Of a stretch of 64,000 bases of DNA, positions 6,428 through 24,033 are shown in pieces. Both the position numbers and the translations under genes were made by a program. The first letter of the stretch is position 1. Each line of letters starts with the position of its first letter. Below the pieces are notes generated by a model. The model was not told the DNA's origin, searched no databases, and was given only the letters and a program-made list of their open reading frames with translations. The stretch is from contig NZ_JAJLQZ010000003.1 in assembly GCF_020991375.1 (NCBI RefSeq), positions 1 to 64,000 of the forward strand. The letters run 5' to 3'. The DNA comes from Glycomyces amatae. GTDB taxonomy: Bacteria > Actinomycetota > Actinomycetes > Mycobacteriales > Micromonosporaceae.

Positions 6428-6904
6428 TCAGCGGGGCGTCAGCAGGTGGCCTTCGGCGTGGAGGCGGCGGGTCCGGGCGATGTCGATGCTGCCGCGCTTG
6501 AGCGTCCCGTCCGCGTAGCCGCCGCCGACGACGATCGCGATGATCAGCAGCGGCAGCAGGACCGTGCGGACGAGCATGGCCCACGGGCCCTTGGCGCCGA
6601 GGCGCCCGCCGTCGCGGAGGCGCACGAGCCGCGTGCCGGTGACCACGGCCCCGAGCGCGCGGCCGTTGGTGTAGCACAGGCCGTAGAGCAGGGGCACGGC
6701 GAACGGCAGCGTGACCAGCCCGATCCCGATGAGCGTGTTGCCGAGGTCCAGCGCCAGGTCGAGGGCCGCCAGGACCACGACGCCGGCGGCGACCCCGAGC
6801 GCGAAGACGACGAAGTCGATGAGCCAGGTGAAGAACATGGCCCAGTCCCCCGCCGGGACGTAGCGGGTGCCGTCGGAGAACGCCTTGACCTTCGCTGCTG
6901 CCAT
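6428..6904 (-). CDS. RDD family membrane protein
   Basis: A 158-residue protein. Three hydrophobic stretches (about residues 20-60 as two helices, and 110-130) surround the loop TNGRALGAVVTGTRLVRL. The name-giving Arg-Asp-Asp pattern is poorly kept: the first helix has WLIDFVV and the arginine of the motif is absent. RDD proteins are inner membrane proteins of uncertain function, sometimes linked to ion exchange. ATG 6904 is chosen over the longer frame because a TAGGGT hexamer lies seven bases upstream and the longer N-terminus is low-complexity. It sits downstream of one STAND regulator gene on the same strand. Confidence 0.65.
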   Translation of the reverse strand: MAAAKVKAFSDGTRYVPAGDWAMFFTWLIDFVVFALGVAAGVVVLAALDLALDLGNTLIGIGLVTLPFAVPLLYGLCYTNGRALGAVVTGTRLVRLRDGGRLGAKGPWAMLVRTVLLPLLIIAIVVGGGYADGTLKRGSIDIARTRRLHAEGHLLTPR

Positions 6905-6917
6905 GGGGAGAACCCTA
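6905..6917 (-). promoter_or_regulatory. Leaderless -10 element for the RDD gene
   Basis: On the minus strand TAGGGT (6917-6912) is followed by seven bases and then ATG 6904. No ribosome binding site is present. Confidence 0.45.
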
Positions 6918-7022
6918 GCGTTCCCCTGCGGAGGGGCTCCTTCCTCGCCGCCGGTCCCGGCCGCGGTCGCGTCTCGGACGGGCTGCTCACGGACGCGCGC
7001 CGGCGCGCGGTCGGGATTTCCT

Positions 7023-7047
7023 GCCGGTTTCCCGCCGGTCTCCCGCC
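7023..7047 (+). repeat. 11-bp iterated element, copy 1
   Basis: Two 11-bp units, GCCGGTTTCCC and GCCGGTCTCCC, stand head to tail and end with a further GCC. The element starts ten bases beyond the stop codon of the first STAND regulator gene and 118 bases upstream of the RDD gene. Related copies occur at 11065-11089 and 13647-13671. Confidence 0.5.
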
Positions 7048-7056
7048 TGCGGCCCG

Positions 7057-9498
7057 TCAGGGCCCGGTCCCCTCCAGGGCGGCCGCGACCGGCCCGGCCT
7101 CGGGCACGCCGCACGCCGCGTAGCCCTCGGCGGCCGCGCGCAGGTGGCGGTGCGCGGCGGCCGCGTCGCCGAGGGCGCCGAGGGCGTCGGCGAGGCCGTG
7201 GTGCGCCCGGGCCAGCTCGTAGGCGTCCTCATGGGACTCGGCGAGCGCCGCCGCCCGCTCGTGCTGGGCGAGGGCCGCCTCGGCGTCCCCCGAGGTGGTC
7301 AGCGCCCGGCCCAGGTCGTTGCGGGCCGCGCGTTCCAGCGAGGGGTCGACGAGCTTCACCGCGTACTCGACGGCGCGGTCGAGGTGCTTCGCGGCCTCGG
7401 CGCCCTCGCCCAGGCGCAGCAGGTCCTCGCCGAGCTCGATGAGCGTCGCGGTCACATCGGCCGTGTCGCCCTCGCCGCCGTAGGCCTCCAGGCAGGCGGC
7501 GTGGACGTCGGCGGCCCGCGCCGGGTCGCCGTGCTCGCGCACCAGCACCCCGCGGAACGACTCGATGCGGACGCGGTTGTGCTCGTCGCCGATGTCGAGC
7601 CGCCGCTCCGCCGCGGCGAGCCGGCGCTCGACCTCGTCGAAGCGGCCGAGCCGCAGCAGCGGGACGACCATGTTCGTCCTGATGAGCGCGGCCGCCGCCG
7701 CGTCCCCGACCGCCTCGGCCTGCTCCAGGGCCGCCTCGTGGACGGCCACCGACTCGGCGAACCGCCCGGACCGGCGGTGGAGGACGCCGATGTTGGCGAG
7801 CGTCAGCGCCGCGTCGCCGAACTCGCCCAGTTCCCGCTTGAGCGCGACGGACCGGTCGAGGTGGTCGATCGCCTCGCGGTTCCGGCCCGCGGCCAGCAGC
7901 CGGCGGCCGGTGTCGCCGAGGGTGTAGGCCTCCTTGCGGTCGTCGCCGGTGCGGCGGGCGATGCCGAGGGCGATCCCGTTGACCGTGGCGTGGGGGCCGA
8001 TGTCGGAGTCGTGGACGAAGAACGCGTTGAACGCCGTCGCCAGGTGCCAGGCCTCCTCGTCGAGCCCGGCGGCCTCGGCGGCGACCACGGCGGCCTCGAG
8101 GTTGCCGCGCTCGGTCTGGAACCACGCCAGGGCGTCGGGCTGGCCGGTGAAGCCGGGCAGGCCGAGGTCGTGGGCGGCGGCGCCGTCGGTGAAGCGGCGC
8201 TTGTTCGGGTGCAGCCGCGCCGCCGCCCGGTAGGCGCTGTGCAGGTGGACGGCGACCAGGCGCCGGAACGCCGCGTCCCGCTCGGCCTCGGTCTCCTCCA
8301 CGGCCGCGAGGCGCGCGGCGAAGAGCCGCACCAGGTCGTGCAGCCGGTAGCGGCCCGGGGAGCGGGTCTCGACCAGGTGCACGTCCACCAGGTCCTCGAG
8401 CGTCCTCGACGCGCGTTCGGCGTCCACCCCGGCCAGTGCGGCGGCGGCCTGGACGTCCGCGTCGTCGCCGGGGGCGAGGCCGAGGCGCCGCAGCAGGCGC
8501 CGGTGCGCGTCGTCGAGCTCGCGGTAGGAGGCGCCCAGGGCGGCGGCGACGCCGCGGTGCCCCATGTCGAGCTCGTCCAAGAGCCGGTCCTCGTCGTCGA
8601 GCCGCTCCAGCAGGTCCCGGGCGCGCCACAGCGGGCGGCTGCGCAGCCGCGCCGCGGCCAGCCCCATCGCCAGCGGCAGGCGCCCGCAGCGCTCCGCGAT
8701 CGCGGCGGCCTCCTGCTCGGTGACCCGGCCCTCGGCCGCGGCGCCGAGCATCGCCACCGCCTCGCGCATCGGCGGCGGCTCCAGCGGCACCGAGTGGGCA
8801 CCGGACAGCACGGACAGGTCGCGGCGGCTCGTGGCGAGGACGAGGCCGTCGGGCGTGCCCGGCAGCAGCGCCTCCACCTGGTCGGCGCTCGCGGCGTTGT
8901 CGAAGAGCAGGAGCACGCGCCTGCCCGCCAGGACGCTCCGGTAGGTCGCGGCGAGCTCGTCGAACTCCTCGGGGCGGGCCCGACTGGCCGGGTCGAGGCT
9001 GCGGATCACGCGCGTGAGCACCGACTCCAGGTCCGGGCGCAGCCCGGCGGCGTGCGTGAAGCCGTGGAGGTCCACGAACAGCTGCCCGTCGGGGTACCGG
9101 GGGGCGAGGACGTGGGCGGCGCGCACGATCAGGGAGGTCTTGCCGACGCCGGCCATGCCGTGCACCGCCACGACCTCGGCGCCGTCCTCGACGGCGGCGA
9201 CGAGCGCGTCGAGCAGGGGCTCGCGGCCGGCGAACCCGGCGAGCGAGCGGGGCAGCTCGCGGGGCACCGGCGCGGTCGGTCCGGCCGGTGCCAGGGGGCC
9301 CCGGTCGGCCTCGTCGAGTCCCAGCGCCCGCAGGAGCAGGCGCAGGGTGCGCGGCTGCGGCCGCGTCCGCCCCGCCTCGATGTCCCGGATCGTGCGGATG
9401 CCGATGCCCGCCTTCGCGGCGAGCTCCTCCTGGGTCATCATCGCCCGCGACCGGAGCCGCCGGAGTTCGAGGGAGGCTTCGGGCACTCGGTCAGGCAT
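7057..9498 (-). CDS. STAND regulator A: XRE-type HTH, NB-ARC ATPase, TPR repeats
   Basis: An 813-residue protein. Residues 12-62 form an XRE/Cro-type helix-turn-helix containing TQEELAAKAGIGIRTIRDIE. Residues 90-330 form an NB-ARC/STAND ATPase with Walker A GMAGVGKTS at 114-122, a Walker B-like VLLLFDNA and the GxP block RCGRLPLAMGL. The rest has a winged-helix-like piece (GRYRLHDLVRL) and repeated TPR-like helices, for example GDAALTLANIGVLHRRSGRFAESVAVHEAAL. Such proteins sense an unknown ligand through the repeats and switch by nucleotide exchange. It is a close paralogue of the gene at 11201-13630. ATG 9498 has no ribosome binding site and a TACCAT hexamer six bases before it. Confidence 0.85.
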   Translation of the reverse strand: MPDRVPEASLELRRLRSRAMMTQEELAAKAGIGIRTIRDIEAGRTRPQPRTLRLLLRALGLDEADRGPLAPAGPTAPVPRELPRSLAGFAGREPLLDALVAAVEDGAEVVAVHGMAGVGKTSLIVRAAHVLAPRYPDGQLFVDLHGFTHAAGLRPDLESVLTRVIRSLDPASRARPEEFDELAATYRSVLAGRRVLLLFDNAASADQVEALLPGTPDGLVLATSRRDLSVLSGAHSVPLEPPPMREAVAMLGAAAEGRVTEQEAAAIAERCGRLPLAMGLAAARLRSRPLWRARDLLERLDDEDRLLDELDMGHRGVAAALGASYRELDDAHRRLLRRLGLAPGDDADVQAAAALAGVDAERASRTLEDLVDVHLVETRSPGRYRLHDLVRLFAARLAAVEETEAERDAAFRRLVAVHLHSAYRAAARLHPNKRRFTDGAAAHDLGLPGFTGQPDALAWFQTERGNLEAAVVAAEAAGLDEEAWHLATAFNAFFVHDSDIGPHATVNGIALGIARRTGDDRKEAYTLGDTGRRLLAAGRNREAIDHLDRSVALKRELGEFGDAALTLANIGVLHRRSGRFAESVAVHEAALEQAEAVGDAAAAALIRTNMVVPLLRLGRFDEVERRLAAAERRLDIGDEHNRVRIESFRGVLVREHGDPARAADVHAACLEAYGGEGDTADVTATLIELGEDLLRLGEGAEAAKHLDRAVEYAVKLVDPSLERAARNDLGRALTTSGDAEAALAQHERAAALAESHEDAYELARAHHGLADALGALGDAAAAHRHLRAAAEGYAACGVPEAGPVAAALEGTGP

Positions 9499-9510
9499 GT
9501 CGCAATGGTA
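9499..9510 (-). promoter_or_regulatory. Leaderless -10 element for STAND regulator A
   Basis: CCCTACCAT precedes the start on the minus strand; TACCAT (9510-9505) is six bases from ATG 9498. The same CCCTACCAT block is kept seven bases before the start of the paralogue at 11201. Confidence 0.55.
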
Positions 9511-9525
9511 GGGCAGCGGGGCGAA

Positions 9526-9547
9526 TCGGGATCGTCCCGACGGGACG
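9526..9547. promoter_or_regulatory. Overlapping palindromes, candidate operator of STAND regulator A
   Basis: TCGGGA-TCG-TCCCGA (9526-9540) and CGTCCCG-A-CGGGACG (9533-9547) are two perfect dyads sharing the TCCCGA block. They lie 28-50 bases upstream of the presumed transcription start, over the -35 region, as expected for an autoregulatory XRE operator. Confidence 0.45.
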
Positions 9548-9622
9548 TTCCGCGGCGGTGTCAGGACCGATGGTCACCCGTGCCGCGCCGCCCGCGGTCC
9601 TTCGTCGGCGGGCGGAGCCCGG

Positions 9623-10150
9623 TCACCGGTCGCACCAGCGTTTCGAGTCCGGGAGCGCCAGCAGGACGATGATGGCGATGGACAGGAGGACGCCGGGGCA
9701 GCTGGAGGCCACCGTGGTGACGTCCGGGGCGTACGCGCTCGTCGTCTCGAGGCCGGCACCCGTGTCGGTGGTGGTCGTGACCGGGCCGATGAGCGCGCTG
9801 TTGACGAACCAGACCGCCGCCGTGATCGCCAGGCCGACCGCCTCCACCGCGATCGCCCCGACCCTCGCCTTGGCGCGGCGGCGCCTGATGCCGACGGCGA
9901 GCACGCCGCGCGCGGCGGACCACGCGACCAGGATCACCGAGACCGCCGCGATCACCGCGCCGAGTCCGGGCTCCAGGCCGTCGTCGGTCCAGGCGTCCGC
10001 CAGGTAGCCGAAGACGGGGAAGAGGGCGCCGCCGCAGACGCCGAGGGCGAGCATGATCCACAGGAGCACCACGGCCGTGGTGGTCGCTCCGGGCATCCGC
10101 TCGGGTGCGGGCGGGTACGGCGGCGGGACCGGTGGTCGCGCTTCGGGCAT
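9623..10150 (-). CDS. Small membrane protein with proline-rich N-terminus
   Basis: A 175-residue protein with no family I recognise. A cytosolic N-terminus rich in proline (MPEARPPVPPPYPPAPER) is followed by four hydrophobic segments at about residues 25-50, 63-90, 98-122 and 150-168, with the basic loop RRRRAKAR between the second and third. GGAAGG stands seven bases before ATG 10150. It lies between the two STAND regulators on the same strand as regulator A, 124 bases upstream of that gene. Function is unknown. Confidence 0.6.
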   Translation of the reverse strand: MPEARPPVPPPYPPAPERMPGATTTAVVLLWIMLALGVCGGALFPVFGYLADAWTDDGLEPGLGAVIAAVSVILVAWSAARGVLAVGIRRRRAKARVGAIAVEAVGLAITAAVWFVNSALIGPVTTTTDTGAGLETTSAYAPDVTTVASSCPGVLLSIAIIVLLALPDSKRWCDR

Positions 10151-10212
10151 CGCTGGACCTTCCGTGGGATCGATCGGGGCGCGTCCGCGCCCCTGCCGGG
10201 CGGGGGACGCGC

Positions 10213-10250
10213 ACCGGACCGATCATGCCCGAAGGCGCGACCGGTCCGGT
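10213..10250. repeat. Inverted repeat between the lipoprotein and membrane protein genes
   Basis: ACCGGACC (10213-10220) and GGTCCGGT (10243-10250) are complementary across a 22-base gap, 47 bases past the lipoprotein stop codon. It could be a weak terminator for the lipoprotein or part of the control region of the membrane protein. Confidence 0.3.
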
Positions 10251-10296
10251 ACGGGCGCTCGGCTCTGAGCGCGGAGGGGCCTGCGGGGGGGACAGG

Positions 10297-10914
10297 CTAA
10301 TTCTTTGGCGTGTCGGCCACTTGGACGTCGAATTCGAACTGCTCGCCCTGGATGCTCGTGATGGTGAGGGTCACCTCGTACTCCGAGCCGGTCGCGGCGT
10401 CGATCAGCGTGCAGTAGGTCTGCCGGTCCACGTAGACGGTGAGGTTCAGTTCGCCGCAGTCGATCTCGGGGCGCGAGCCGACCTGGGCCTCCAGGGCGTC
10501 CTCGGCGGCCTCGGCGAGGCGCTCGGCCTCGACCTCGAGGCCGGCGTCGTCGGCGGGCGGCGCCGTGGTCTCGGCCGGGTCGGAGGCGGCGCCGCCGTTG
10601 GGCTCGGAGGCCACCTCGACGTCGGCGTTCCACTCGCCGCCGTCGACGCCGGTGAAGGTCACCGCGGCGTCGAACTCCGAACCCGTGGACGGGTCGGTCA
10701 GCACGCAGTCGACCTCCTCGCCCTCGGTGACGATGATCGAGTCGTCGTCGCCGCAGTCGATCTCGGGGCGCGAGCCGATCTCGCCCTCCAGGGCGTCCTC
10801 GGCCGCCGCCGCGACGTCCTCGCTCGAGACGGTGGGTCCGGCTTCGACGCTGCACGCGGCGAGGCCGACGGCCGCGAGGGCGAGGGGCAGGAGGGCGAGT
10901 GTTCGGATGGGCAC
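10297..10914 (-). CDS. Lipoprotein with two tandem DUF4333 domains
   Basis: A 205-residue secreted lipoprotein. The signal peptide ends in the lipobox GLAAC with the lipidated cysteine at residue 21. Two similar modules follow, each with the pattern A-AEDALE-x-x-x-GSRPEIDCG, then a second cysteine (EVDCVLTD in the first, QTYCTLID in the second) and a terminal beta hairpin. This matches DUF4333, which usually occurs once per protein; each module probably has one disulfide. The linker is acidic and rich in Ala, Pro and Thr. GTG 10914 follows GAAAGG by about seven bases; the longer upstream frame is antisense to regulator B and is rejected. Function is unknown. Confidence 0.75.
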   Translation of the reverse strand: MPIRTLALLPLALAAVGLAACSVEAGPTVSSEDVAAAAEDALEGEIGSRPEIDCGDDDSIIVTEGEEVDCVLTDPSTGSEFDAAVTFTGVDGGEWNADVEVASEPNGGAASDPAETTAPPADDAGLEVEAERLAEAAEDALEAQVGSRPEIDCGELNLTVYVDRQTYCTLIDAATGSEYEVTLTITSIQGEQFEFDVQVADTPKN

Positions 10915-11064
10915 GGTTCGGCCTTTCGTTCGCTGACTGGTTGCCGCCGTCCCGCTGCGGGGCGGCGCTCGATCCGGCGGCGACCGCGCGGCCGGGCGCA
11001 CTGGCCCCGGCGCGCCGTGCGTCCCCGCCGCGACCAGTGTGTCCCGGGCGGGGTCGGGTTTCGA

Positions 11065-11089
11065 GGCGGGCGACAGGCGGGACACCGGC
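11065..11089 (-). repeat. 11-bp iterated element, copy 2
   Basis: Read on the minus strand, GCCGGTGTCCC (11089-11079) is followed directly by GCCTGTCGCCC (11078-11068) and GCC. It lies in the 286-base region between the divergent lipoprotein and STAND regulator B genes. The unit length and core match the elements at 7023 and 13647. Confidence 0.45.
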
Positions 11090-11187
11090 GGGATCGCCGC
11101 CCCTCGGCGGCGGGCGGTCGCGCCGAGAGCACGGGGCCGGGGCGGCGGCCCGCGCCCGTGGCCGGGTGTCCACCTGCCGGTCCGCCC

Positions 11188-11200
11188 TACCATGGGCACC
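11188..11200 (+). promoter_or_regulatory. Leaderless -10 element for STAND regulator B
   Basis: TACCAT at 11188-11193 ends seven bases before ATG 11201 and sits in the block CCCTACCAT shared with the paralogue. There is no ribosome binding site. Confidence 0.5.
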
Positions 11201-13630
11201 ATGCCCGACCGAGCGCCCGACGCCCGCAGCCTCCGCCCGCTGCGGCTGCGGGCGATGCTGACGCAGGAGGAGCTCGCGCTGAAGGCGGGCGTCGGGACGC
11301 GGACCGTCCGCGACATCGAGTCGGGACGGGTCCGGCCGCAGCCGAAGACGCTGCGGCTGATCGTCGAGGCGCTGGGGCTGGGCGAGGAGGACCGGGCGCT
11401 GCTGGCCGGGACGCCCCGCGCCGGGGCGCCGGCGCCCCGCGAGCTGCCCCGCTCGCTCGCCGCGTTCGCCGGGCGGGAGCGGCACCTCGGGGACCTGCTC
11501 GCGGCGGTCGACGCCGGGGCCGCCGTGGTCGCCGTGCACGGCATGGCGGGCGTCGGCAAGACCGCCCTGGCGGTGCGGGCCGCCCACGCCCTCGCGCCCC
11601 GGTACCCCGACGGGCAGCTGTTCGTGGACCTCCAGGGCTTCACCCGCGCCGCGGGGCACCGGCCGAGCCGGGAGTCCGTCCTGGCGCGGGTGCTGCGCGT
11701 CCTCGGCGCGGACGAGCAGGACCTCCCCGCCGGCGCCGGGGAGCTCGCCGCGGCCTACCGCAGCGCCCTCGCGGGCCGCCGCGTCCTCCTGCTGCTCGAC
11801 AACGCCGCGGGCGCCGAGGAGGTGGAGGCGCTGCTGCCGGGGACGGCGGACGTGCTCACGCTGGCGACGAGCAGGCGCGACCTGTCCGCGGTGGCGGACG
11901 CGGTCCCGGTGCCGCTGGGGCCGCCGCCGATGCGCGAGGCCGTCGCGATGTTCGAGGCCGCCGCCGGGGACCGGGTCACGGCGGCCGAGGCGGCCGCGGT
12001 CGCGGAGCGCTGCGGGCGCCTGCCGCTGGCGATGGGCCTGGCGGCGGCGCGGCTGCGCAGCCGCCCGCTGTGGAGCGTCGAGGACCTGCTGCGGCGGTTG
12101 GACGACGAGGAGCGGCTGCTGGACGAGCTCGACATGGGGCACCGCGGCGTCGCCGCCGCCCTGCGCGCCTCCTACCGCGAGCTCGACGCGGACCAGCGGC
12201 GGCTCCTGCGGCGCCTCGGCCTGGTCCCGGGCGAGGACGTGGACGCCCGCGCCGCCGCGGCCCTGTGCGGGACCGGCCCGGAGGAGGCCTCGGCGGCACT
12301 GGAGTCCCTGGTGGACGTGCACCTGGTCGAGACGCACGCGCCGGGGCGGTACCGGCTGCACGACCTGGTGCGGGTCTTCGCGGCCGGGCGCGCGGACGCC
12401 GAGGAGACCGGGGCCGGGCGGGACGCGGCGTTCCGGCGCCTGCTCGGCGGCTACCTGCACTTCGCGTTCCAGGCGGCGGTCCGGGTGCCGTCGCAGTACC
12501 AGCGGATGCTCGCGAAGGAGGCGGCGGCGCACGACCTCGGCCTGCCCGGCTTCGACGGGCAGGCCGAGGCCATAGCGTGGTTCCAGGCCGAGCGCGGCAA
12601 CCTGGCGGCCGCCGTGCACGCGGCGGAGCGCGCCGGGCTGCTCGAGCCTGCCTGGCACCTCGCGAACGCGTTCAGCGCCTTCCGGATGCACGGCCGGGAC
12701 GCCCGGCGGCACCTCGAGGTCAACGGCATGGCCCTGGGGATCGCGCGCCGGCTCGGCGACGAGCGGAAGACCGCGCACAGCCTGGGCGACCGGGGGCGGC
12801 ACCTCATGTTCGCGGGCAGGAACCGGGAGGCCGCGGGCTGCCTCGAAGAGGTCGCCGCGCTCAGGAGGGGCCTCGGCGACGCCGGCGGGGCCGCGCTGGC
12901 GCTGCGGAGCATCGGCATCCTGCACCGGCAGTCGGGGCGGTTCGCCGAGGCGCTCGAGGTCTACCGCTCCGCGTTCGCGCTGGCCGAGTCCGCCTCGGAC
13001 ACCAGGACGATGGTGAACATCGCGGTGAACGCGGTCGACCCGCTGCTGTCGCTGGGCCGCCTGGCGGAGGCCGAGCGCAGCGCCGCGGAGGCGGAGCGGC
13101 ACCTGGGCGCCGACGACGACTACAACCCCGTGCGCATCGAGGTCTGCCGCGGGACCTTCGCCCGCATGCACGGCGACCCGGCCGCGGCCCTGGCGGTGCA
13201 CACCGCGTGCCTGGAGCGCTGCCGCCGGGCGGGGCTGCTGGGCGGTTTCACGCCGACGCTCATCGAGCTGGGCGAGGACCTGCTGGCCCTGGGCCGGACC
13301 GGCGAAGCGGTGGCCCGCCTGGGCCAGGCCGTGGAGCAGGCGGAGGAGATGGCGTACCTGTCGTTCGAGCGCACCGCCCGGAACGCGCTCGGGCGCGCGC
13401 TCGCCGCCTCCGGCGACCTGGCGGGGGCGGTCGACCAGCACGAGCGCGTGCTGCGGCTGGCCGAGTCCCAAGAGGACGCCTACCAGCTCGCGGAGGCCCA
13501 CCACGGGCTCGCCGAGGCCCGCCGGGCCGAGGGCGACGCCGCGGCCGCGCAACGGCACCTGCGCAGCGCCGCAGCGGGTTACGAGCGGTGCGGCGTGCCC
13601 GGGTCCGGGCTGCTCCCCCGCGTGCGGTGA
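11201..13630 (+). CDS. STAND regulator B: XRE-type HTH, NB-ARC ATPase, TPR repeats
   Basis: An 809-residue paralogue of the protein encoded at 7057-9498, aligned over its whole length. Shared blocks include TQEELALKAG in the HTH, VVAVHGMAGVGKT at the P-loop, LAPRYPDGQLFVDL, DELDMGHRGVAAAL and RCGRLPLAMGLAAARLRSR. The C-terminal half has TPR-like helices but has diverged more, for example the segment VPSQYQRMLAKEAAAHD replaces a different region in A, which suggests another ligand. ATG 11201 is chosen because MPDRAPD aligns with the start MPDRVPE of paralogue A; the longer frame upstream would overlap the promoter. A and B point away from each other. Confidence 0.85.
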   Translation: MPDRAPDARSLRPLRLRAMLTQEELALKAGVGTRTVRDIESGRVRPQPKTLRLIVEALGLGEEDRALLAGTPRAGAPAPRELPRSLAAFAGRERHLGDLLAAVDAGAAVVAVHGMAGVGKTALAVRAAHALAPRYPDGQLFVDLQGFTRAAGHRPSRESVLARVLRVLGADEQDLPAGAGELAAAYRSALAGRRVLLLLDNAAGAEEVEALLPGTADVLTLATSRRDLSAVADAVPVPLGPPPMREAVAMFEAAAGDRVTAAEAAAVAERCGRLPLAMGLAAARLRSRPLWSVEDLLRRLDDEERLLDELDMGHRGVAAALRASYRELDADQRRLLRRLGLVPGEDVDARAAAALCGTGPEEASAALESLVDVHLVETHAPGRYRLHDLVRVFAAGRADAEETGAGRDAAFRRLLGGYLHFAFQAAVRVPSQYQRMLAKEAAAHDLGLPGFDGQAEAIAWFQAERGNLAAAVHAAERAGLLEPAWHLANAFSAFRMHGRDARRHLEVNGMALGIARRLGDERKTAHSLGDRGRHLMFAGRNREAAGCLEEVAALRRGLGDAGGAALALRSIGILHRQSGRFAEALEVYRSAFALAESASDTRTMVNIAVNAVDPLLSLGRLAEAERSAAEAERHLGADDDYNPVRIEVCRGTFARMHGDPAAALAVHTACLERCRRAGLLGGFTPTLIELGEDLLALGRTGEAVARLGQAVEQAEEMAYLSFERTARNALGRALAASGDLAGAVDQHERVLRLAESQEDAYQLAEAHHGLAEARRAEGDAAAAQRHLRSAAAGYERCGVPGSGLLPRVR

Positions 13631-13937
13631 CGGCCCGGACCCGGCTGCCGGTTTTCTGCCGGTGTCCCGCCGCACGCCTCCGGCTCGCCGGGCCGGCGGC
13701 GTCGCGGACTGCGGGCCAGGGTCGCGCGGACCGACCGGGAGGCGCCTCGGCCGCCCCGTCCACCTGCCCGGACACGCGAACCGCAGGCCCCCGCCGCGCA
13801 GGCGGGACGGCCGCGCACCGGCCCGCGGGGCCGGCTTCGGCGCCCTTTCGCCGCCCGGTCCCGGTCGACCCGGCTGACTACGCTGGAGGGCGCCCTTCGG
13901 CGGCCCCCGGACACCCTCTTCTCGGCTTGGAGCGGAC
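13631..13937. other. Intergenic region between STAND regulator B and the AAA ATPase gene
   Basis: No gene is seen. The 5' part holds the third 11-bp element (13647-13671). TACGCT at 13879-13884 is a plausible -10 for the ATPase gene, giving a leader of about 47 bases with a GGAG site before ATG 13938. The middle is G+C-rich without a clear terminator. Confidence 0.45.
13647..13671 (+). repeat. 11-bp iterated element, copy 3
   Basis: GCCGGTTTTCT and GCCGGTGTCCC stand head to tail, followed by GCC. Including the preceding T, 23 of 26 positions match the element at 7022-7047. It begins 16 bases after the stop of STAND regulator B. Confidence 0.5.
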
Positions 13938-15605
13938 ATGCCCTTCTCTGGCGCAACGGAAACCTGGGCGCGCGGAGTCGAACTCCTCCACGACGGCGAC
14001 CGCGTGCGCGCGTCGGACTGCTTCGAGTTCGTCCTCGACTACGACCCCCGCGCCGCGGACGCCTGGCTCGGCCTCCACGCCTGCGGCGAGCGAAAGGAGG
14101 AGGCGCTGCTCCGCATGCTCGAGCACCGGGACCGCCTGGGCGACCTGCGGGGCGACACGGGGCTCGCGCTCGAGTCGTCGTACGCCATCGGGATGTTCGT
14201 CGACTACCGGCTCACCGGCCCCTACGAGATCTGGCTGGCCTACGTGGCGGGGCTGCTGGACGCCGACGAGACCGACCTCGCCTGGGAGCAGCTCACCCTC
14301 GTGCGCGAGGGCGACCTGGAGGACAAGGCCAGGTTCCTGCGGACCCGCTGCCGCTTCGAGCAGGACGACTGGAAGGAGGTGCTCAAGGCGGCGCACGGCA
14401 TCGAGGACCCGCGGCTGCGCGACGAGGCCCAGTTCTACGTCGCCGCGTCCCTGGTGCACCTCGAGACCCCTTACGAGGCCTTGAACACCCTCCAGGACCT
14501 GCCGGGCGGGCTGCGCGACCCCCTGTACGAGGCCCACCTCGCCTTCGTGCGGGGCGCGGCGATGGAGTCGCTCGGGGAGGCCGAGGAGGCGGCGCAGGCG
14601 TTCCAGCGCGCCTACCGGCTCGCCCCCGACATCGAGGTGTTCGCCGAGCGCGTCCGGACCGTCCGCCCCGCCAAGGCGGTGGAGCTGGACTTCGACCCGG
14701 ACCCGTCGAAGGCGGCCGCCGAGGTCGAGCGGGACCGCGCCGACCGCGCGACGCTGCTCGAGGAGGCCGGGCGGCGGCTCGACGCCATGATCGGGCTCCA
14801 GCCGGTCAAGGAGCGGATCCAGGCCCTGAAGGCGCAGTTCAGGATGGCGGCGCTGCGGGCCGAGCGCGGGCTGCCGGCCTCGAACCGGCCGCACCACTTC
14901 GTGTTCACCGGACCGCCCGGCACCGGGAAGACCACGGTCGCCCGCATCACGGGCGAGATCCTCGCGGGCCTGGGCCTGCTCGAGCACGGACGGGTCGTGG
15001 AGGTCCAGCGCGGCGACCTGGTGGGCGGCTACCTGGGGCACACCGCGATGAAGACCCGCGCGAAGATCGACGAGGCGACCGGCGGCGTCCTGTTCGTCGA
15101 CGAGGCGTACTCGCTGGCCGGGCAGGGGTACGAGGGCGACAGGGACGCGTTCGGCGAGGAGGCGATGCAGGAGATCCTGACGGCGGCCGAGAACCGGCGC
15201 GACCGGCTCGTCATCGTCCTGGCCGGGTACACCGAGGAGATCCGCGAGCTGCTGTCCACCAACCCCGGCCTGCGGTCGCGGTTCTCCACGGTGATCGAGT
15301 TCCCGTCGTACTCGACCGAGGAGCTCGCCGGCATCGCCGTCTCGATCCTCGCGGGGGCGGGCGAGACGCTCACGGCCGAGGCCGAGCACGCCCTGCGGGT
15401 GAGCTTCTCGATCGCGATCGGCATGGGGAGGATCGACGCGCTCGGGAACGGCCGGTTCGCCCGCGAGCTCTGCCGGAAGGCCGCGGCGCAGCGGGACCTG
15501 CGCCTGCTGGTCGGGTACGGCGACGACGGGACCCCGACCTCCGCCGAGATGACCACGATCGAGGCCGTCGACGTCACGACCGCCTACGCCGAGTTCGGCG
15601 TCTGA
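13938..15605 (+). CDS. EccA/CbbX-like AAA+ ATPase with helical N-terminal domain
   Basis: A 555-residue cytosolic protein. The N-terminal 270 residues are TPR-like helices; the C-terminal part is an AAA+ ATPase of the CbxX/CfqX family with Walker A GPPGTGKTT near residue 327, Walker B GVLFVDEAYSL near 385, a sensor-1 region VIVLAGY and the arginine-containing end NPGLRSRF. Length and domain order match EccA of type VII (ESX) secretion, about 570 residues. No ESX membrane component, WXG100 protein or mycosin is within the window, so a role in type VII secretion is only a family inference. It converges on the methyltransferase gene with almost no gap. Confidence 0.8.
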   Translation: MPFSGATETWARGVELLHDGDRVRASDCFEFVLDYDPRAADAWLGLHACGERKEEALLRMLEHRDRLGDLRGDTGLALESSYAIGMFVDYRLTGPYEIWLAYVAGLLDADETDLAWEQLTLVREGDLEDKARFLRTRCRFEQDDWKEVLKAAHGIEDPRLRDEAQFYVAASLVHLETPYEALNTLQDLPGGLRDPLYEAHLAFVRGAAMESLGEAEEAAQAFQRAYRLAPDIEVFAERVRTVRPAKAVELDFDPDPSKAAAEVERDRADRATLLEEAGRRLDAMIGLQPVKERIQALKAQFRMAALRAERGLPASNRPHHFVFTGPPGTGKTTVARITGEILAGLGLLEHGRVVEVQRGDLVGGYLGHTAMKTRAKIDEATGGVLFVDEAYSLAGQGYEGDRDAFGEEAMQEILTAAENRRDRLVIVLAGYTEEIRELLSTNPGLRSRFSTVIEFPSYSTEELAGIAVSILAGAGETLTAEAEHALRVSFSIAIGMGRIDALGNGRFARELCRKAAAQRDLRLLVGYGDDGTPTSAEMTTIEAVDVTTAYAEFGV

Positions 15606-21501: not shown

Positions 21502-21965
21502 AGCAGCGGGCAGGTGCGGGGGTCGCGCGAACCGGGCTCCTCCAAGGTGAACCTGAGGCGCACCGTCGCCTCGGTCGAGCCGCCGTTCTGGACGTGCGCG
21601 GCCAGTGCCGTGCACACGATCTGGTCGATGCCCAGCGGCGTCACCTCCTCGGTCGACAGCGGCACCCGCAGTTCGACCTCCTGCCCGGTGACGGTCACCT
21701 CGACCTTCGCGAACGCGGTCGGCGCGATCTCGGTGTCCAGGTCCGCGTCGCCGGGGCCCGACAGCAGCAGCGACAGCGCCTCGGCGATCGTGCCGAGGCG
21801 CCCGGTGTCGCGCACCGTCGCGCGCAGCTCGCCGCCGTCGACGAAGTACAGCGTGGGGCCGGGGGCGACGCCGGTCGGGGCGGGCCCCCCGTCGGTCACG
21901 CCGGAGGGTTCGACGCCGCAGCCCGCCAGCAGCAGCACCGCGGCCGCGATCCAGATCCGCCTCAC
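21498..21965 (-). CDS. GerMN-domain lipoprotein of the two-component operon
   Basis: A 155-residue lipoprotein. The signal peptide ends in LLLAGC with the lipidated cysteine at residue 16. The body ([47 protein letters not shown]) has the alternating beta/alpha pattern of a GerMN domain, here a single copy. The gene overlaps the kinase gene by ATGA. LpqB of the MtrAB system has GerMN domains and modulates its kinase, so a similar extracytoplasmic role is plausible, but this protein is much smaller and lacks the propeller. Confidence 0.7.
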
Positions 21966-23362
21966 GGCGCCTCCTTCGGGAGGCGCAGCACGAAGCGCGC
22001 GCCGCCGTCGTCGCCGTTGCCCGCGGTGAGGCCGCCGCCGTGGAGGCGGGCGTTCTCCAGCGCGATCGCGAGGCCGAGTCCGCTGCCGGGCGTGCGGGCG
22101 CGGGCGTCGTCGGCCTTGTAGAAGCGGTCGAACACGTGCGGCAGCACGTGGTCGGGCAGGCCCGGTCCGGCGTCGGCGACCTCGATGCGGACCTCGGGCC
22201 CGGCCTCGCGGACGCGGACGCGCACCGGCGGGGCGCCGTGCCGCAGGGCGTTGCCGACGAGGTTGGCGACGATGACGTCGAGGCGGCGCCGCTCGGCCCG
22301 CAGCGCGATCCCGTCCGGGCCGGTCAGCTCGACGCGGTCGAGCCAGCCCCGGGCGCGCAGGGTGTCGCGCACGGCCTCGGCGGCGTCGATCTCCTCCAGC
22401 CGCGGCCGGACGGTGCCGGCGTCGAAGCGGGAGACCTCCATCAGGTCCTCCGCGAGCCGCACCATCCGGTGGATCTCGGTGACGGCCAGCCGCGCGGACT
22501 CCCTCGCGTCGGTCTCCTCCATGCGGTCGGCCGCGTCCGCGAGCACTTCGGCGACCGCCGTGAGCGTGGTCAGCGGGGTGCGCAGCTCGTGGGAGACGTC
22601 GGCGGCGAACCGCCTGGCGTCGGACTGCATCCGCCGCATCGCCGCCATCGAGGCCTGGAGGGACCCGGCCATCTCGTTGACCGTGGCGGTGAGCTGCGCG
22701 AGCTCGTCGGCGCCCTGCGGCGGGGTGCGGGCGTCGAGGTCGCCGTCGGCGAGGCGCTGGGCGGTGTCGCGGAGTTCGCGCACGGGGCGCAGGACGCCGC
22801 CCGCGGCCAGCAGCGCGATCACGCCCGCGACCGGGAGCGCCAGCGCGGCGGTGCCGATCGCCGTGGCCGCGAGGTCGTCGATCCGCGCCTCGACCTCGCC
22901 GAGGTCGCGCGCGGCGTACACCTCGATGCCCGAGGGAGTGCGCGAGCCGTCGGGCGCGGTGGTCATGACGGGGGCGCCGATGAGCAGGAGGGGCCGGCCG
23001 TCGGCGGTGATCCGCTGGGTCGCGATCCGGTCCCGTTCGCGGACGGCGCCGCGGAGTTCGGCGGTGGCCCGGTCGGCGCCGTCCGAGGACCGCAGGTCCT
23101 CGAAGGACACGGTCGTGTCGGGGCCGACCGCCGCGCGGAGCCGGTCGAGCACGGCCTGGTCGGGCGGGTAGGTGAGGGTGGGGGCGATGGCGGCGATCTG
23201 CTCGGCGAGGGTCCGGGTGAGCTGGCGCTGGTGCGACTCCACCAGCGCGTCGCTCGCGGACTCGGCGCCGGCCCAGGAGGCCGCGCCCGCGCCGATCATG
23301 GTGGCCAGCGCGAACGCCACGATCATGCGGGCGCGCAGTCCCCGCAGCGGGAACCGGGTCAT
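21962..23362 (-). CDS. Sensor histidine kinase
   Basis: A 466-residue membrane kinase. Helix 1 spans about 12-33, the extracytoplasmic sensor about 34-165, helix 2 about 168-189, then HAMP (190-240). The H-box [16 protein letters not shown] places the phosphorylated histidine at 258. ATP-binding boxes follow: N-box [11 protein letters not shown]1 DAGPGLP and G2 [18 protein letters not shown]. It starts at ATG 23362, overlapping the stop of the response regulator by four bases. The signal sensed is unknown. Confidence 0.9.
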
Positions 23363-24033
23363 ACCGGCCCGAAGCGGTAGCCGAAGCCGCGCACGGTCTG
23401 GACGTACACGGGGTCGGCGCCGTCGGTCTCGATCTTGGCGCGCAGCCGCTGGACGCAGTTGTCGACCAGGCGCGAGTCGCCGAGGTAGTCGTGCTCCCAG
23501 ACCGCTTCGAGGAGCTGGCGGCGGCTGAAGACGCGGCCGGGCGAACCGGAGAGGGTCAGCAGGAGCCGCAGCTCGGTCGCGGTGAGCGCGACCGGCGCGC
23601 CGTCGAGGGACACGGTCAGCGAGACGGTGTCGACGCGCAGGCCGCGGAACTCGCGCACGCCGTCGGGCCCGGTTCCGCCGCGGCGCAGGACGGCCCTGAT
23701 GCGGGCGTCGAGCACGGTGGGCTGCACCGGTTTGACGATGTAGTCGTCGGCGCCGGCCTCCAGGCCGCCGACGATGTCGAAGTCGTCGCCGCGGGCGGTC
23801 AGCATGATGATCGGCACCGTGCCGCGGGCCCGGATGCGGCGGCACACGGTGAATCCGTCGATGCCGGGGAGCATCAGGTCGAGCACCACCAGCTGGGGCG
23901 GTGCGGCGTCGAACGCCGCCACGCCGTCCTCGCCGGTCGCCGCCGCCTCGACCTCGTGGCCGTGGCGGCCGAGGGCGAGCTGGAGCCCGCGCCGGACGAG
24001 GGGGTCGTCTTCGATGAGCAGGATTGCGGCCAC
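23359..24033 (-). CDS. OmpR/PhoB-family response regulator
   Basis: A 224-residue regulator. The receiver domain has acidic residues in LIEDDP, the phosphoacceptor Asp52 in VVLDLMLPG, the conserved threonine in MLTARG and Lys101 in YIVKPV. The C-terminal winged helix carries [13 protein letters not shown] and [17 protein letters not shown], typical of the OmpR branch. GTG 24033 is chosen because the fold begins immediately ([11 protein letters not shown]). CATACT stands six bases before it and no ribosome binding site is evident, so it may be leaderless. It is the first gene of a three-gene overlapping operon with the kinase and GerMN lipoprotein. Confidence 0.9.

Follow-up and report, generated by a model that had tools for sequence, protein, structure and literature searches.

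A block of six genes at positions 6428-15605 (~9.2 kb) of a 64,000-nt stretch of Glycomyces amatae DNA (hereafter, the window), denoted R, S1, H, L, S2 and E, contains three copies of a 33-bp triple-repeat element that is very probably an operator, with a regulon extending across Glycomyces. Two of the genes, S1 and S2, encode STAND proteins that consist of an XRE-type helix-turn-helix (HTH) domain, an NB-ARC domain and tetratricopeptide repeats (TPR). On balance, we favor the interpretation that such XRE-headed STAND proteins, similar to MalT and AfsR, are activators that read this operator and run a dispersed regulon of envelope and secreted-protein genes, which would include the divergent cluster in the window.

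A triple-repeat element shared across Glycomyces

Genes were called from codon usage and third-position GC content over a six-frame list of open reading frames. Searches with E, S2, L, H and R covered 22 Glycomyces genomes (61 genomes in all for E), and 51 neighborhoods were fetched, in which genes were called and clustered; these include all S (STAND), E and full-length R places, with some partial L and weak H matches left out. In the locus labels, G000 is the own genome (6.17 Mb) and G000:C23 is the window. Because the first pass of the genome search is lossy, the counts of S genes are taken as lower bounds (for example, an 888-aa S protein at G008:C12 was missed by the S2 search), and the result of an own-genome DUF4333 search, zero matches although L carries this domain, was disregarded.

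Tandem 'ACCGGCGGGA' repeats were first noticed in the upstream regions of 26 S genes and also at R. Over 70 non-redundant instances, the conserved columns define an element of three 11-bp direct repeats, CRAGGCGGnnn-ACCGGCGGGAn-ACCGGCRGGAn; the conservation of the first repeat unit is an independent sign because that unit was absent from the search pattern. With up to two mismatches, the own genome yielded 13 matches, compared to one for the reversed pattern. These correspond to 11 places, nine intergenic and two, both weak, intragenic, and three of the nine intergenic places fall within the 9.2-kb block, where the density of the other six over 6.17 Mb predicts ~0.01. Across Glycomyces, with no more than one mismatch, 70 matches were found in 17 of the 22 genomes, against two for the reversed pattern, whereas 134 other genomes of the family yielded 37, only one of them exact, against 10 for the control, that is, ~3.2 matches per Glycomyces genome vs 0.3 per other family genome.

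In the window and the 51 loci (up to two mismatches), the matches lie between called genes, many of them beside S, R, L, E, H or a few other families. Although 83% of the sequence of those loci was called coding, only one of the 70 instances falls within a called gene. Around the element, the DNA is not conserved apart from a -10-like box that keeps a fixed distance from the repeats. The gap between the element and this box, nAnnnT read on the other strand, is exactly 20 bp at 42 of the 76 sites, and no other gap occurs at more than eight. From this geometry, we infer that the nearest repeat covers the -35 position, with the transcription start ~33 nt away. A scan for consensus promoters and terminators gave nothing clearly above shuffled sequences (0 promoters; 2 terminators vs 1.0). 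Two mismatch-free operators with a correctly spaced -10-like box (L068:7036 and L069:9724) have no close same-strand called gene in the promoter direction and perhaps serve small genes or RNAs.

Within the block, operator 2 (11062..11094, plus strand; position weight matrix score 39.7) consists of three direct repeats in the divergent control region between L and S2 (10915-11200). The -10-like box of the predicted L promoter, CACACT (11036..11041, minus strand), is 20 bp from it, in agreement with the genus-wide geometry. Operator 1 (7018..7050, minus strand), located between the 3' end of S1 and R, also has three direct repeats; its score of 43.6 is the highest among the own-genome places found by pattern, and an extra weak unit extends to 7061. 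Operator 3 (13642..13674, minus strand; score 20.5), between S2 and E, is made of degenerate repeats, and no -10-like box was seen at 20 bp from it. For S1 and H, no upstream operator was detected in the window.

Genes next to the element

In the promoter direction, the tabulated sites precede L (13 rows at 11 loci), genes for P450-like enzymes (six) and HAF-repeat-like secreted proteins (four), genes for small secreted proteins (three), H (two), E (two, one of them weak) and others. The recognized outputs, as predicted from their sequences, are largely membrane proteins, lipoproteins and secreted proteins, with the P450-like enzymes as the clear exception. The labels HAF-repeat-like, P450-like, Tat-like secreted and pyruvate-dehydrogenase-like were assigned by inspection, without a database match. 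The HAF-like repeats ('GMSDDGSVIAY') characterize a secreted family represented at L157, L186, L178, L075, L079 and L073, of which the own-genome copies, L157 and L186, carry the operator. These two full-length targets have no Pfam match at E<=0.01, and a short peptide scan of one secreted target revealed nothing useful.

The association was quantified in loci that had been fetched by homology, not by motif, by counting genes with a site (no more than one mismatch) within 400 bp upstream. Such a site is present at R in 8 of 13 cases (Fisher p 1e-11), at L in 8 of 15 (5e-11), at H in 2 of 3 (6e-4), at S in 6 of 28 (5e-6) and at E in 1 of 11 (0.13), compared to 8 of 689 other genes; these p-values overstate independence, since S and R are the genes at which the element was first noticed and the promoters are orthologous. 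When scored with the weight matrix, sites above the 98% background quantile were found at L (10/15), R (9/13), E (3/11) and H (2/3).

R and S genes are found at the opposite side of the element: in all 14 R and S genes with an upstream site, the repeats read towards the gene. At these genes, the distances from the operator to the leaderless-type box fall at 46-47 bp (three genes), 80-81 (five), 89-93 (three), 100 (one) and 116-117 (two), groups that perhaps reflect helical phasing.

Candidate readers and competing explanations

The S-type STAND proteins are the probable readers of the operator, as their genomic association with it suggests. A site is found within 350 bp in 12 of the 26 XRE-type STAND genes, compared to 20 of 733 other genes, and in the 22 genomes, S copy number rises with site number (Spearman 0.67, p 0.0007; 0.50, p 0.018, without the sites near STAND genes). 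In G004, which has no close S gene, L, R and E lack the element, as does R in G002, where a close S gene is missing as well. Furthermore, none of four additional STAND-type cluster members has the element within 350 bp, and two of these four are directly upstream of L. One of the four, the gene at L063:11552-14767, is, by Pfam, a SARP-STAND (Trans_reg_C and BTAD were found), SARP denoting Streptomyces antibiotic regulatory proteins. In G021 and G012, L is located behind a gene of the SARP-STAND type, and its promoter contains a different 11-bp repeat, TCCGTGCGGAA twice, instead of the operator. The TCCGTGCGGAA repeat is possibly a SARP-specific site, and these two cases give the impression that the type of operator goes with the class of regulator. 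The DUF4333 lipoprotein genes that have TCCGTGCGGAA twice upstream are L063:15027-15608 and L097:7290-7913, both directly behind SARP-NB-ARC-TPR-type genes.

S1 and S2 both contain HTH_3/HTH_31, NB-ARC and TPR_12 domains above the Pfam cut-offs, with an NB-ARC/NOD core that includes a Walker A motif (GMAGVGKT in both proteins) followed by TPRs. The N-terminus is the DNA-binding XRE domain, and no effector domain was detected in Pfam searches. The closest solved relative is AfsR of Streptomyces, a large SARP that has NOD and TPR parts; it is homologous over NB-ARC and TPR (phmmer E 9.7e-57 to 8k60) and likewise involves 11-bp direct repeats at the promoter, the same period as here. However, the scores of S1 and S2 against the NCBIfam model SARPRegAfsRStmc (281 and 305.5 bits) are far below the equivalog cut-off of 1430, and the two proteins have an XRE HTH and lack Trans_reg_C and BTAD (S1 at E<=0.01, S2 at E<=1). 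The best NCBIfam match over the NB-ARC-TPR part is HaaT, a TPR protein of cyclophane-containing ribosomally synthesized peptides (NF041717), at 312.5 and 343.4 bits, respectively, with a cut-off of 1125. GutR of Bacillus subtilis also combines an N-terminal HTH, a nucleotide-binding part and TPRs, and shows ligand-induced ATP binding; S1 and S2 are likened to it by this description, not by sequence.

In its proposed mode of action, the system resembles MalT. The STAND activator MalT of Actinoplanes, a member of Micromonosporaceae, is described in PMC7567727 as binding a motif that ends 34.4 +/- 1.0 nt before the transcription start site and overlaps the -35 region, close to the ~33 nt predicted here from sequence. 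The Escherichia coli MalT sites are in direct repeat, according to the title of a cited reference. The differences are that MalT recognizes sites with a GGA(T/G)GA core, which form a palindrome in Actinoplanes (PMC7567727), as opposed to the ACCGGCGGGAn repeats of the present element, and that the DNA-binding domain of MalT is C-terminal (PMC6468293). Pfam searches detected no C-terminal LuxR-type HTH, a feature of MalT and other LAL proteins, in S1 or S2, in which the HTH is the N-terminal XRE domain. We conclude from these sequence comparisons that S1 and S2 would work like MalT and are built like AfsR with an XRE head, and are members of neither group.

In the scheme that we favor, the TPR part of S1 and S2 would sense a ligand, the NB-ARC domain would switch from ADP to ATP, and the protein would oligomerize, such that a row of HTH heads, placed on the phased repeats that take the -35 position at weak promoters, could recruit RNA polymerase. 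Activation, as opposed to repression, is suggested by the predicted -35 position of the repeats. Three phased repeats would fit a row of heads on one oligomer, given that oligomerization is important for DNA binding by MalT (PMC10427625). The cluster in the window is divergent, and the control region 10915-11200 would drive L-H-S1-R leftwards and S2-E rightwards, the latter through the own leaderless promoter of S2; S1 and R also have leaderless-type boxes of their own. The same operator would control envelope and secreted-protein genes dispersed over Glycomyces genomes, and paralogs with near-identical HTH helices and divergent TPRs would provide several inputs to one output.

A more elaborate version of this scheme, which we consider tentatively and with less confidence, is a hub in which NLR-like paralogs with different TPR sensors would oligomerize and lay three HTH heads on the shared 3 x 11-bp operator, so that any of several cues would switch on the regulon together with the sensors, and a SARP-headed sister STAND protein would recognize another 11-bp repeat in the promoter of the same lipoprotein gene. 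In the open literature searched, mostly at the level of titles and abstracts, no operator for the XRE-NB-ARC-TPR class was found. A defined operator, a fixed promoter geometry and target families make this class directly testable; it would be a bacterial equivalent of NLR sensors that acts as a transcription factor, with one output possibly shared by several paralogs.

Several observations weigh against S proteins as readers or against the wider regulon. Inverted repeats are the usual target of XRE proteins. No site lies within 350 bp of 14 of the 26 S genes, and at one mismatch or fewer, none is found in G021, which has two S genes. Sites do occur in G002, G007 and G019, where close S genes are missing, and in G007 and G019 R is among the genes with a site. 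The correlation of sites with S genes ignores kinship, and its presence/absence form yields p=0.054. At R and S, the element is in the other orientation, 46-117 bp from the own leaderless box (14 genes). E is weakly linked to the element, and allowing two mismatches in place of one raises its count from 1/11 to only 3/11. Outside the genus, the number of matches is still above the control.

Sites also adjoin genes for XRE-SARP-NB-ARC-TPR hybrids, identified by Pfam in L164 and by inspection in L158 and L169, and therefore, another STAND class could be the reader. It is rather unlikely, in our assessment, that the operator is read by such a different regulator, either these hybrids or a global activator, with S1 and S2 being only targets or chance neighbors. 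The hybrids in L158, L164 and L169 have the site directly upstream, the sites in genomes without a close S gene point the same way, and SARP regulators typically act at direct repeats of 11 bp in the -35 region (PMC10936776 and PMC10972967). However, SARP sites are described in the former as direct repeats 11 or 22 bp apart, the last of which is 8 bp from the -10 element, with the afs box centered at -29.5, whereas the last repeat is here 20 bp from the -10-like box, which weakens the SARP reading. In addition, the four other STAND-type members lack the element, the L promoters behind two of these carry TCCGTGCGGAA, and site number tracks the copy number of S, a count from which the hybrids were left out genome-wide.

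Compared to S proteins acting on a true operator, an accidental gene cluster in an accessory region, with the repeats being a dispersed element without regulatory function, is improbable. The fluid gene order and the restriction of the six-gene set to the window would agree with it, but conservation is confined to the repeats and the -10-like box at a fixed distance, and the element is kept between genes and recurs at orthologous promoters in loci that are not linked. Least plausible of all is an anti-phage defense island, one of the functions suggested by the sequence-only reading, in which S1 and S2 would act as NLR-like sensors and, through R, H or L, kill the cell or damage its membrane. 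The STAND fold, the neighboring membrane proteins and a partial similarity of E to the IetA ATPases in PADLOC (best E 1e-9) are compatible with defense. The PADLOC matches are, however, fragmentary (at the level of HTH, TPR or ATPase) and no system was called; the N-terminus is an XRE DNA-binding domain; in comparison with Avs-type anti-phage STAND proteins, the block has no defense family recognized by PADLOC and no effector domain recognized by Pfam; and both genes and operators are dispersed, the other targets including HAF-repeat-like, P450-like and small secreted proteins. The defense reading was dropped.

The six genes and their relatives

The gene calls and Pfam bear out the description of two full-length HTH/NB-ARC/TPR paralogs that point away from each other and enclose H and L. 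S1 (7057..9498, minus strand) encodes 813 aa and S2 (11201..13630, plus strand) 809 aa, with 65% identity overall. Also as proposed from sequence, the HTH and ATPase are retained and the repeats diverge: the identity is 70% in the HTH, 73% in the nucleotide-binding part, 74% in the winged-helix part and 58% in the TPRs, with a minimum of 52% in the middle TPRs (domain limits set by hand). The recognition-helix region is near-identical (RTIRDIE and RTVRDIE, respectively). An AlphaFold model of S2 from two sequences has a mean pLDDT of 60.4 and is good only in the HTH and the TPR superhelix, with most of the nucleotide-binding part below 50.

The S genes are preceded by what we predict to be leaderless-type promoters: 24 of 26 have a TANNNT box 5-8 nt ahead of an in-frame start, compared to 82 of 719 called genes, a rough control only, since those were subjected to a stricter test, at the called start. 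The S2 start was moved to 11201 because of this box, which is TACCAT (11188..11193, plus strand), 7 nt before the ATG. The corresponding boxes are TACCAT at 9505-9510 for S1 and TAGGGT at 6912-6917 for R, both on the minus strand.

A third close paralog (60% identity) is present at G000:C21, so that the 'pair' is two of three, and the own genome has 15 further distant or partial matches. The supposed stop ('1 TAG') in the third paralog is not premature: it marks the end of the called gene (L067 89-2431), beyond which the match simply continues. Close XRE-NB-ARC-TPR proteins occupy at least 25 places in 15 of the 22 Glycomyces genomes (S2 search). A tree built from 26 S proteins and two SARP-STAND outgroups places S1 and S2 in different clades, with the three other R-linked S genes and the H-linked S gene of G013 in the S1 clade (support 0.95). 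By this placement, S1 and S2 are old paralogs, not products of a recent tandem duplication. A family of Tat-like secreted proteins of ~180 aa is encoded near or adjoining XRE-type STAND genes (L067:2529-3068 in own-genome C21, L087:6399-6941, L074:10880-11416 and L158:4193-4744); its gene is convergent with the third STAND paralog in the own genome and with the ortholog of that paralog in G010.

L (10297..10914, minus strand) starts with GTG behind a ribosome-binding-site-like GAAAGG and is indeed a lipoprotein with tandem DUF4333 domains, having two such stretches and the lipobox LAAC. The same holds for H (9623..10150, minus strand) as a four-helix protein: it has four hydrophobic, transmembrane-like helices, with no Pfam match at E<=1 and no NCBIfam match at E<=0.1. 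R (6428..6904, minus strand) is a 158-aa membrane protein with three transmembrane-like segments; its assignment as an RDD protein is unsupported because no Pfam match, including RDD, was found at E<=1. E (13938..15605, plus strand; 555 aa) has been called an EccA-like AAA ATPase, and this stands at the domain level, with matches to T7SS_EccA1_N and AAA in Pfam, as in EccA of type VII secretion, but not at that of the EccA equivalog TIGR03922, where it scores 348.6 bits vs the cut-off of 466.65. EccB is present in all 22 genomes, in the own genome on a contig other than that of E, whereas full-length E is found in 11 of 22; E therefore lies outside the core secretion locus. Close relatives of E (61-72% identity) are encoded at six named Glycomyces loci, and in three genomes, E is beside a pyruvate-dehydrogenase-like gene.

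A conserved six-gene unit can be rejected: contrary to the expectation that the genes stay together in relatives, none of the 21 other Glycomyces genomes searched has the set, which occurs only in the window. At 18 of 25 S places, the fetched stretch contains no R, H, L or E, so that STAND genes are largely single and in unrelated surroundings. The idea that the regulators and envelope genes belong together thus fails for a conserved block but survives in the form of the common operator upstream of R, L, H and S, and hardly for E. Partial arrangements recur. On one strand, S precedes R in G000, G006, G011 and G016, the last with an intervening gene. H precedes S in G000 and G013 and E in G016, and S precedes E in G000 and G021. 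R adjoins L in G007 and G010, and L is convergent with an S gene in G008. E adjoins a STAND gene only in the own genome and G021, where that S gene falls outside the S2 clade; therefore, the S-E pairing was not simply inherited.

Elsewhere in the window (21962-24033), adjacent genes for a two-component kinase-like and a response-regulator-like protein are located beside a gene for a small lipoprotein.

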